Assembly (NCBI RefSeq): GCF_003075095.1
Contig: NZ_QCZF01000001.1
Coordinates: 744,001 to 808,000 of the forward strand
Direction of reading: 5' to 3'
Length of the DNA stretch: 64,000 nucleotides
DNA from: Blastococcus litoris
GTDB taxonomy: Bacteria > Actinomycetota > Actinomycetes > Mycobacteriales > Geodermatophilaceae
A program made the translations under genes and the position numbers. Below, piece by piece: positions 25,589 to 27,505 of the stretch; positions within the stretch are counted from its first letter, which is position 1; the number at the start of each line of letters is the position of its first letter. The notes under the pieces are model-generated. The model searched no databases and was not told where the DNA came from. It saw only the letters and a list, made by a program, of their open reading frames with translations.

Positions 25589-26284
25589 ATGTCCGCCCCC
25601 ACCCGATCCGCGGTGCTGCGCGACGCGGTCGGGCTGGGGCTGGCGGTCGGCCTCTACGGCGCCGCGTTCGGCGCCGCCGCGGATGCCGCCGGCCTCGACC
25701 TCTGGCAGGCGATGACCCTGTCGGCGCTGATGTTCACCGGCGCCTCGCAGTTCGCCCTGGTCGGGGTCCTCGGGGCGGGCGGTAGCGCACTGGCCGCCGT
25801 CGGCAGCGCGCTGCTGCTGGGCACCCGCAACACCGTCTACGGGGTCCGGCTCCTGCCGCTGCTGCGGCCGCGGGGGGCGCTCCGCCGGCTGGGTACCGCG
25901 CACTGGGTCATCGACGAGACGACCGCCCTGTCGATCGCGGCGCCCGACCGCCGGCTCGCACGGCTGGCGTTCGTGGCCGGTGGCGCCTCGATCTTCGTGA
26001 TGTGGAACGTCACCACGGTCATCGGCGCGCTGGGCGCGGCGGCGTTGACCGGACCGGCGCTGGCGGCCCTCGACGCGGTGGTCCCCGCCGCGTTCCTCGC
26101 GCTGCTGTGGCCGCGGCTCCGGAAAGGGTTCCCGGAGCACCGCGTCCAGCAGCGGGTGGCGATCGGGGGAGCCGTGGTGGCACTCGCGCTCACGCCCTTC
26201 GTCCCGGCCGGCGTCCAGGTCATCGCGGCGGTCGTGGCGGTCGCCCTCGCCGGTGCGCCCCGGACGAAGGAGGCGGCGGCGTGA
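25589..26284 (+). CDS. azlC: AzlC-family branched-chain amino acid exporter, large subunit
   Basis: Polytopic membrane protein of 231 residues with family segments YGAAFGAAADAAGLDLWQA, SALMFTGASQFALVGVLGAGG, NTVYGVRLLPLL and HWVIDETTAL. AzlCD-type pairs export branched-chain amino acids or analogues. It overlaps azlD by GTGA. Confidence 0.92.
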   Translation: MSAPTRSAVLRDAVGLGLAVGLYGAAFGAAADAAGLDLWQAMTLSALMFTGASQFALVGVLGAGGSALAAVGSALLLGTRNTVYGVRLLPLLRPRGALRRLGTAHWVIDETTALSIAAPDRRLARLAFVAGGASIFVMWNVTTVIGALGAAALTGPALAALDAVVPAAFLALLWPRLRKGFPEHRVQQRVAIGGAVVALALTPFVPAGVQVIAAVVAVALAGAPRTKEAAA

Positions 26285-26598
26285 GCGGCACGGCGTTGTG
26301 GGCGGCGGTGATCGGCGGGTCGCTCGGCTGCTACCTGCTCAAGCTGGCCGGCCTGTCGGTGCCCGCCGCCTGGGTCGAGCAGCCGTGGGTCGCGCGCGTC
26401 GTCGACTTCGTGCCCGCCGCCCTGCTCGCCGCGCTGGTGGCGGTGCAGGCGTTCACCGACGGCCAGGAGCTCGTGGTGGACGGGCGCCTCGCCGGCCTCG
26501 CGGTGGCCGCCCTCGCGCTGGCGTTCCGCGCGCCGTTCATCGTCGTGCTCGTGCTCGCCGGGGCCGCCGGCGCGCTCGTGCACGTCCTCGCCGGCTGA
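26281..26598 (+). CDS. azlD: AzlD-family small subunit
   Basis: A 105-residue protein with four hydrophobic segments, the normal size of AzlD, the partner of AzlC. GTG 26281 overlaps the azlC stop. Family residues include the YLLKLAGL and VDFVPAALLAALVAVQAF stretches. The Trp-codon leader follows 26 bases downstream. Confidence 0.9.
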   Translation: MSGTALWAAVIGGSLGCYLLKLAGLSVPAAWVEQPWVARVVDFVPAALLAALVAVQAFTDGQELVVDGRLAGLAVAALALAFRAPFIVVLVLAGAAGALVHVLAG

Positions 26599-26611
26599 AC
26601 CGCCCCGGCGC

Positions 26612-26617
26612 TAGGGT
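26612..26617 (+). promoter_or_regulatory. -10 element TAGGGT of the Trp-leader transcript
   Basis: TAGGGT is followed by seven bases and GTG 26625, the same layout as azlC and glgA. It places a transcription start at the leader peptide start codon, well before the chorismate mutase-GNAT gene. Confidence 0.55.
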
Positions 26618-26624
26618 GCCGGGC

Positions 26625-26660
26625 GTGACGACGTCCCGCACCTGGTGGTCCCGCCCGTAG
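26625..26660 (+). CDS. Candidate Trp-codon leader peptide
   Basis: An 11-codon frame, GTG to TAG, reads MTTSRTWWSRP with two adjacent tryptophan codons, as in leader peptides of ribosome-mediated trp attenuators. It sits at the predicted 5' end of the mRNA and 93 bases before a gene with a chorismate mutase domain, in the pathway leading from chorismate. GACGACG (26627-26633) inside it can pair with CGTCGTC (26666-26672), which would let ribosome stalling change downstream folding. Confidence 0.6.
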   Translation: MTTSRTWWSRP

Positions 26661-26678
26661 CGGACCGTCGTCGACGAC

Positions 26679-26708
26679 CCTGACCGCTGCTCCGCCGAGC
26701 CGGTCAGG
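26679..26708 (+). terminator. Candidate attenuator hairpin
   Basis: CCTGACCG (26679-26686) and CGGTCAGG (26701-26708) form a perfect 8-bp stem. The hairpin lies after the Trp leader and its putative antiterminator pairing segment. There is no U-tract, as is common in GC-rich actinobacteria, so termination strength is uncertain. Confidence 0.5.
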
Positions 26709-26752
26709 ACGTCCCGTCCTCCGCGGCCGGAGCCGACCCGAGGACACGATCC

Positions 26753-27505
26753 ATGACCGAGGAATCCCTCGCCGCCGTCCGCGCGGCCATCGACAGCATC
26801 GACGGTGAGATCGTCGAGCGGCTCGCGCGACGCGAGCGGCTGGTCCTCCGGGCCGGTGCGTCGAAGAGCGACGCGGCCGCCGTCCGGGCACCCGGCCGCG
26901 TGGCAGCCGTCCTGTCGCGTGTCCGCGAGCTGGCGCGCGCGGCCGGGGCGGACCCGGAGCTCGTGGCCCGCGTGTACCGGACCATGATCGCCGCCTTCGT
27001 CGAGCGGGAGCTGGCCGCGGCCGGCTTCCCCGACCGTCCGCTGATCGGGCCGGCCGCGCGGGACGACGTGGGGGAGATCCTGACCCTCCAGCGCGCCGCC
27101 TACGTCACCGAGGCCCGGCTGTACGCCGACGCCGAGCTCCCCGCGCTGGTGCAGACCGAGGGAGAGCTGGCCGCCGAGCTGGCCGGGGGGATCGCCCTCA
27201 CGGCCACGCGGGACCGCCGCATCGTCGGGGCGGTGCGCGGGCGGGTGGTGGACGGGACCCTGCACGTGGGCCGCCTCGTCGTGGCCCCGGACCAGCAGGG
27301 CAGGGGGACCGGCGCCGCCCTGGTGACGGCGATCGAAGCGGCGGCCGGGCCGGACGCGCGGCGGGCGACGCTGTTCACCGGGCAGCTGAGCACCGCCAAC
27401 CTGCGGCTCTACGAGCGCCTCGGGTACCGCGAGGAGCGTCGCGAGCGGCTCTCGCCGCGGGTGGAGCTGGTGCACCTCGGCAAAGCGCTCCCGACGGTGG
27501 TTTAG
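26753..27505 (+). CDS. Chorismate mutase-like domain fused to GNAT acetyltransferase
   Basis: A 250-residue fusion. Residues about 5-90 form an all-helical AroQ chorismate mutase-like domain (LAAVRAAIDSIDGEIVERLA, RELARAAGADPELVARVY). The Lys of the usual lysine loop (ASKSD) and the Arg of APGR are kept, but the Glu that normally follows this Arg is Val. Residues about 97-245 form a GNAT domain with the acetyl-CoA motif VVAPDQQGRGTGAALV and ANLRLYERLGY. The ATG 26753 start is 93 bases after the Trp leader. Acceptor unknown; the mutase part may be catalytic or a ligand sensor. The stop is shared with ogt in TTAG. Confidence 0.85.
   Translation: MTEESLAAVRAAIDSIDGEIVERLARRERLVLRAGASKSDAAAVRAPGRVAAVLSRVRELARAAGADPELVARVYRTMIAAFVERELAAAGFPDRPLIGPAARDDVGEILTLQRAAYVTEARLYADAELPALVQTEGELAAELAGGIALTATRDRRIVGAVRGRVVDGTLHVGRLVVAPDQQGRGTGAALVTAIEAAAGPDARRATLFTGQLSTANLRLYERLGYREERRERLSPRVELVHLGKALPTVV

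Follow-up and report, generated by a model that had tools for sequence, protein, structure and literature searches.

Leaders that sense an amino acid usually precede genes making or using that amino acid, so that their placement hints at the purpose of the gene behind them. In tnaC of Escherichia coli, a Trp and the Pro-stop tail both matter, and the Trp stands 12 residues from the last residue. Mycobacteria reportedly carry polycysteine leaderless short open reading frames ahead of sulfur genes, said to have been described by Canestrari in 2020, a work cited in PMC13236596, and to act on translation initiation. Elsewhere among the Actinobacteria, the trp attenuators of Streptomyces and Corynebacterium combine double or triple Trp codons with GC-rich poly-U terminators and control trp operons and a trpS gene, as given in PMC1262725. 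A survey from 2015, cited in PMC4833913, deals with actinobacterial Trp attenuators and lies outside the present comparison; among the literature titles searched, none concerned a leader of the kind described here or a CM-GNAT fusion.

The leader compared with these systems lies on the forward strand of a 64-kb stretch of Blastococcus DNA, the whole of which is referred to as the window. A -10-like element, TAGGGT (26612..26617), stands 7 nt 5′ of the GTG (26625) that opens an 11-codon frame, V/MTTSRTWWSRP (26625..26660, with TAG at 26658-26660), which has counterparts in 14 relatives; from this leaderless spacing, the transcript would start at the leader start codon itself. Two adjacent Trp codons occupy 26643..26648. 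GACGACG (26627..26633) and CGTCGTC (26666..26672) form the two arms of a stem, P0, and CCTGACCG (segment B, 26679..26686) and CGGTCAGG (segment C, 26701..26708) those of a perfect 8-bp hairpin with additional inner GCTC/GAGC pairing, all four arms being evident in both the sequence and the predicted fold. The initial annotation had pointed out the TAGGGT, the tiny frame with its adjacent Trp codons, the GACGACG/CGTCGTC pairing and the hairpin at 26679-26708, and each was confirmed. Absent from that description was a third stem-loop, in which an anti-Shine-Dalgarno strand, GTCCTC (segment D, 26716..26721), pairs with GAGGAC of the Shine-Dalgarno region (segment E, 26740..26745); P0, B:C and D:E make up the three stem-loops of the predicted fold, the last of them covering the Shine-Dalgarno sequence. 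Alternative pairings are also available: GTAGCGG at the stop codon (segment A, 26657..26663) can pair with CCGCTGC (26684-26690) and may in this way take part in a switch, and CGTCCT at segment D (26715-26720) can pair with AGGACG (26706-26711).

For the window leader RNA, the predicted folding energy is -65.4 kcal/mol (z -3.87, matched by 0 of 200 shuffles; z -3.54 in a repeat run); as a reference, 60 equally long random windows have a mean z of -0.30 and a standard deviation of 1.17. By itself, the 8-bp hairpin is nothing unusual: perfect hairpins of this length are common in the window, with 84 in 64 kb, and occur in 7.6% of 130-nt windows. Leaderless-type short frames, defined as 6-20 codons with [T/C]ANNNT 5-8 nt before ATG or GTG, number six on both strands of the 64 kb, and one of the six contains adjacent Trp codons; the corresponding means from 100 dinucleotide shuffles are 11.8 frames and 0.03 frames with adjacent Trp. 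The window leader is real as a sequence feature.

In total, 15 leaders with the same layout were obtained, all from Geodermatophilaceae, and since six Geodermatophilus rows, of which five are nearly identical leaders, enter the counts, these are less independent than their number. Three precede the fusion gene discussed below (fusion-type leaders) and 12 precede GNAT genes (GNAT-type leaders), the latter occurring in Geodermatophilus, Blastococcus and Modestobacter. The fusion genes of genomes G004 and G003 are preceded by the leaders VTTRSAWWPRP and MTTTSRTWRVRR, respectively, each with a TAGGGT ahead of it; in all three fusion-type leaders, 6-7 nt separate this element from the start. The 12 GNAT-type leaders likewise have a -10-like element at 6-7 nt, but there it is CANNNT and deviates from the TANNNT consensus. 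All 15 peptides begin with [M/V]T[T/A], and all 15 leaders contain a Trp codon, the last of which, as in the window, is four codons ahead of the TAG in 14 leaders and five in the remaining one (L004). Adjacent Trp codons, the conservation of which the initial annotation had put forward as a check, are present in 5 of 15 leaders (L001, L005, L048, L072, and L150). By the refutation rule given in that annotation, namely relatives lacking the tandem, its strict tandem-Trp claim falls, but the general idea survives. The leaders usually have one Trp codon, and one codon makes a weak sensor.

A covariance model of nine GNAT-type leaders (R1), which is blind to reading frame, gave 45 matches, of which 12 were kept (E at most 1.6e-14) and 33 set aside (E 0.001 to 1), nine of the latter after inspection (L151-L159). 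It contributed three further leaders to the set (L143, L149, and L150), with start, Trp and TAG in frame in all three. The R1 search did not recover the window's leader, and a second model built from the three fusion-type leaders (R2) gave clear matches only to its own three training sequences, its best in-register matches among GNAT-type leaders being L147 (E 0.13) and L148 (E 0.34). Pairwise DNA similarity between fusion-type and GNAT-type leaders is weak and uneven; for this reason the shared layout is the main link between the two types, and a common descent is possible from the sequences compared.

The leader frame is probably translated, as suggested by gap sizes, the in-frame R1 finds and pattern matches, each of which depends on how the leader set was found. 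In a MAFFT alignment of 12 leaders (A4), gaps between GACGAC/GACGGC and the stop measure 3 or 6 nt, and gaps of 1, 2, and 4 nt are among those after the stop. A pattern consisting of a leaderless start, Trp, three codons and TAG, which was drawn up from the known leaders and is thus not independent of their discovery, matched 14 times across 108 genomes; 12 of these matches are known leaders (it misses 3 of the 15), and its reversed form matched once. These data bear on the reading that the Trp codon is kept for RNA structure only, the frame being incidental and the leader answering to another signal or merely setting a low level of expression. In several GNAT-type leaders the TGG does lie within GGTGGC or its like, which is paired in the untranslated fold; however, gaps of codon size confined to the frame, in-frame codons in leaders returned by a frame-blind model, and a Trp-stop distance common to two leader types with unlike stems all stand against a purely structural role, which we regard as improbable.

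Outside the family, no convincing leader was found in an order-level search of 298 genomes (some Geodermatophilaceae included) nor, apart from two Actinomadura loci, in a scan for Trp-bearing short frames upstream of 78 of 80 loci. Matches outside the family (L195-L197) were set aside as chance, including a look-alike in another family of the order (L195:1501-1616, minus strand), in which VTSQGWRHR and TAG are followed by no fitting gene that could be seen. In the two Actinomadura loci (L099 and L125), TAGGGT-started frames beginning MSEANRGVWG... and MSAANRGVWG..., each with one Trp, lie about 150 and 90 bases, respectively, before a GNAT match; their layout is different, and they were set aside because the Trp frame is missing in the other Actinomadura loci inspected. 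A match in L032 is the beginning of a longer frame and not a leader.

The reading that we favor, with a confidence somewhat better than even, is that of a ribosome-mediated attenuator which senses Trp, acts on translation and is carried by a leaderless transcript, translation being preferred as the output because the last stem covers the Shine-Dalgarno sequence and no terminator-like site was found at 26400-26900. Under this proposal, transcription would start at the leader's own start codon. With charged tRNA-Trp plentiful, the ribosome would reach the TAG and cover the stop-codon segment, upon which B:C and the Shine-Dalgarno hairpin D:E would form and the gene would be poorly translated; with charged tRNA-Trp short, the ribosome would wait at the Trp codon four codons upstream of the stop, and the free stop-codon segment would draw pairing off the anti-Shine-Dalgarno strand, so that the gene would be expressed. 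We infer where transcription starts, that the leader is translated, which way the response goes, which alternative pairs form and that Trp is the signal.

The initial annotation had read the layout as one of ribosome-mediated Trp attenuation, and this stands as far as a Trp-codon leader with stems recurs in relatives; an occluded Shine-Dalgarno sequence is, however, a likelier output than a transcriptional one. Transcriptional attenuation would have the polymerase stop in the C-rich spacer, via Rho or an unusual terminator, unless prevented by a ribosome stalled at Trp. The spacer between TAG and gene has a C/G ratio of 1.19-1.83 in 15 of 15 leaders, a figure that stands without comparison to other spacers of these genomes, and a strong hairpin sits mid-spacer. 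Both would suit such a stop, but neither a terminator-like site nor an intrinsic terminator with a U-tract was found at 26400-26900, the region scanned in the window only, and the predicted folds leave the Shine-Dalgarno bases largely paired, with a mean unpaired probability of 0.00-0.40 across the 15 leaders when no ribosome is present and an opening cost of 3.5-11.4 kcal/mol in the folding model. A transcriptional output is thus unlikely in our estimation.

Folding of the leaders at equilibrium with a mask for the ribosome revealed no clear switching of the Shine-Dalgarno sequence between closed and accessible states; a trend emerged only when the costs of opening it were compared, as described below. 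In stability, the last 45 nt do not exceed shuffles (z between -2.16 and +0.80), and L005, a leader of the fusion type, has no unusual fold at all (z -0.03). The geometry of the proposed translational attenuator was modeled with the last Trp codon in the A site and an assumed cover extending to 11 bases beyond the first base of that codon. A ribosome so placed ends just before the stop-codon segment in 14 of 15 leaders, and a ribosome at the TAG covers the segment, which in most GNAT-type leaders is TAGGTGG and can pair with both the 5′ arm of the hairpin and the anti-Shine-Dalgarno strand. When all bases up to the leading edge are masked, each of the 15 leaders has a Shine-Dalgarno sequence that is cheaper to open with the ribosome at Trp than at the stop; replacing the mask at the stop by a 30-nt footprint leaves the sign unchanged in 14 of them (the exception is L005). 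The mean gain is 2.23 kcal/mol, compared with 0.80 for permuted released segments, and because permuted segments also give a positive mean, the sign of the gain alone proves little. In six leaders (L048, L049, L050, L052, L053, and L143) the gain is clearly beyond the permuted controls (at most 7 of 150 as high), and none of these is of the window's type. Permuted segments match the gain in 9 and 12 of 150 cases for L051 and L149, respectively, and in 20 to 132 of 150 for the other seven leaders, among them the fusion-type L004 (64) and L005 (132). The gain of the window leader lies below the permuted mean (1.1 vs. 2.23), with 100 of 150 permutations as high. As modeled, then, the switch appears to be supported in part of the leader set and not for the window's leader.

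Covariation of the stems, another check put forward with the initial annotation, was borne out in part. For the three stems of the 12 GNAT-type leaders, the covariation score is 0.097; shuffles give 0.059, and none of 500 scores as high. Paired cells make up 89.7%, compared with 28-57% on sliding, in an alignment that was fitted to structure and so leans towards it. Pairs changed on both sides in these leaders number three, where 1.7 are expected and 104 of 500 shuffles are as high, and covariation in the three fusion-type leaders, among which there is too little variation, is not above shuffles. In a Modestobacter leader (L048:1361-1491), the best partner of GACGACG follows the hairpin rather than preceding it, representing a rearranged P0.

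The gene behind the window leader (26753..27505, + strand) encodes a 250-aa fusion of a CM_2-type domain (residues 9-86) and a GNAT acetyltransferase domain (residues about 145-236), which agrees with its earlier description as a fusion enzyme and not a known trp gene; its upstream neighbors are azlC and azlD (25589..26598, + strand). Among NCBIfam models, isochorismate lyase matches the CM_2 half best (59.2 bits, below the cut-off of 126), and the nearest solved relative of the region encoding it (26753-27031) is PchB (E 5e-8). The sole other solved entry matched is 1ecm (E 0.0078), which we take to be E. coli chorismate mutase. Because isochorismate lyase and PchB match better, "chorismate mutase" is used here as a family label rather than as a shown activity, and the CM_2 half may act on isochorismate. 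Stand-alone CM-type genes in other Geodermatophilaceae (L054, L055, and L056) lie directly behind an azlD-like end, which suggests that the fusion arose in an azlD neighborhood.

Control by Trp had initially been explained by pathway logic, chorismate feeding the synthesis of Trp, Phe and Tyr. The leader tracks GNAT more closely than chorismate chemistry, because 12 of the 15 leaders precede GNAT-only genes, full-length fusion matches in Geodermatophilaceae have a leader in three cases and none in seven, and the CM half is nearest to PchB. The fusion genes without a leader (in G011, G036, G083, G020, G030, G105, and G106) have no R1 or R2 match either; that of G011, which encodes the protein most like the window's (76%), begins 17 nt after azlD and leaves no room for one. 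No leader was found within 260 bases of four CM-only loci. Twenty-one further matches, extending to E 7.5e-33 and mainly to the GNAT part, are divided between nine with a leader and 12 without. In a tree of 59 GNAT domains, the 12 leader rows are scattered within Geodermatophilaceae, with seven changes compared with a shuffled mean of 11.1 (0 of 500 as low).

Nine of the 12 GNAT-type loci have a normally long GNAT frame of 152-161 codons behind the leader, and in three the frame is broken. The leader is kept in all three: in L143:1501-1703, GNAT is a 23-codon stub and the leader now stands ahead of a methyltransferase-like frame; in L149:1246-1628 (minus strand), the GNAT gene is without its middle part; and in L150:1501-1821, it stops after 64 codons. 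A class I methyltransferase gene adjoins the leader or the GNAT gene in L072, L149, and L150 (Pfam), similar frames are present in L143 and L063, and the leader may act on the methyltransferase as well. The leader could instead respond to a ribosome-targeting antibiotic or to its own nascent peptide, with an Arg-rich tail or a Pro before the stop, by stalling of the erm or tnaC type, the acetyltransferase and the methyltransferase then being resistance enzymes, a reading with which these neighbors and peptide tails ending in RRR, RRP, or RHP before the stop are consistent. Against it, Arg-X-Arg and Pro before the stop each occur in 6 of 15 leaders by eye, Trp alone is invariant among the tail residues, and PADLOC, which covers phage defence rather than drug resistance, had no match to the two proteins tested; drug or peptide sensing is therefore quite unlikely in our view.

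Retaining Trp as the signal, the leader could act as an alarm for tRNA-Trp charging outside Trp synthesis, inducing the acetyltransferase, and in some species the methyltransferase, against a Trp-like compound or an inhibitor of Trp-tRNA synthetase, with the same alarm placed in Blastococcus before the chorismate/isochorismate-domain fusion by azlCD; this is speculative, and we give it little credence. The one trp gene compared, trpE, offers no counterpart: in none of eight genomes (L169-L176) was a Trp leader found over the 400 bases preceding the trpE match, and trpE there sits close behind an upstream frame that is hisI-like by eye. A Trp-bearing short frame ahead of trpE in L171 lies, on a by-eye reading, inside the upstream gene. 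The conserved Trp codon precedes an acetyltransferase in a family in which eight genomes have trpE without an adjacent leader. If the switch is real, it would suggest that this GNAT family has a role connected with Trp, and it would be an example of a leaderless Trp switch that has no terminator.

Among described elements, Rfam gave two matches for the window at 26400-27000, both far below gathering scores, and none for nine loci. The leaders resemble the trp attenuators of Streptomyces and Corynebacterium, as described in PMC1262725, in being actinobacterial and in having a short Trp-codon frame followed by alternative stems, which here are predicted ones, but differ from them in often having one Trp codon, in having no terminator-like site in the window's leader and in preceding a GNAT or fusion gene. 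A short Trp-codon frame kept in relatives, as in a classical trp leader, was found in 15 of 15 leaders, though the gene has many relatives that lack one; tandem Trp codons throughout, a terminator and a trp target were also looked for and not found, and for this reason we do not class the element among the classical trp attenuators. As in tnaC of E. coli, Trp and a Pro-stop tail are both present in some leaders, but with the last Trp mostly four codons before the stop instead of 12 residues from the end, and with the Pro in a minority only; nor is the Arg/Lys-X-Arg/Lys stall motif of erm-type leaders a general feature of the set. With the polycysteine short frames of mycobacteria, the leaders share a leaderless short frame with regulatory codons and a control of translation initiation, reported for the mycobacterial system and proposed here, and they differ in using a Trp rather than Cys codons, in preceding GNAT rather than sulfur genes, and in belonging to another family. 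By this analogy, the leader appears to come nearest to the leaderless upstream-frame attenuators of the mycobacterial cysteine type.
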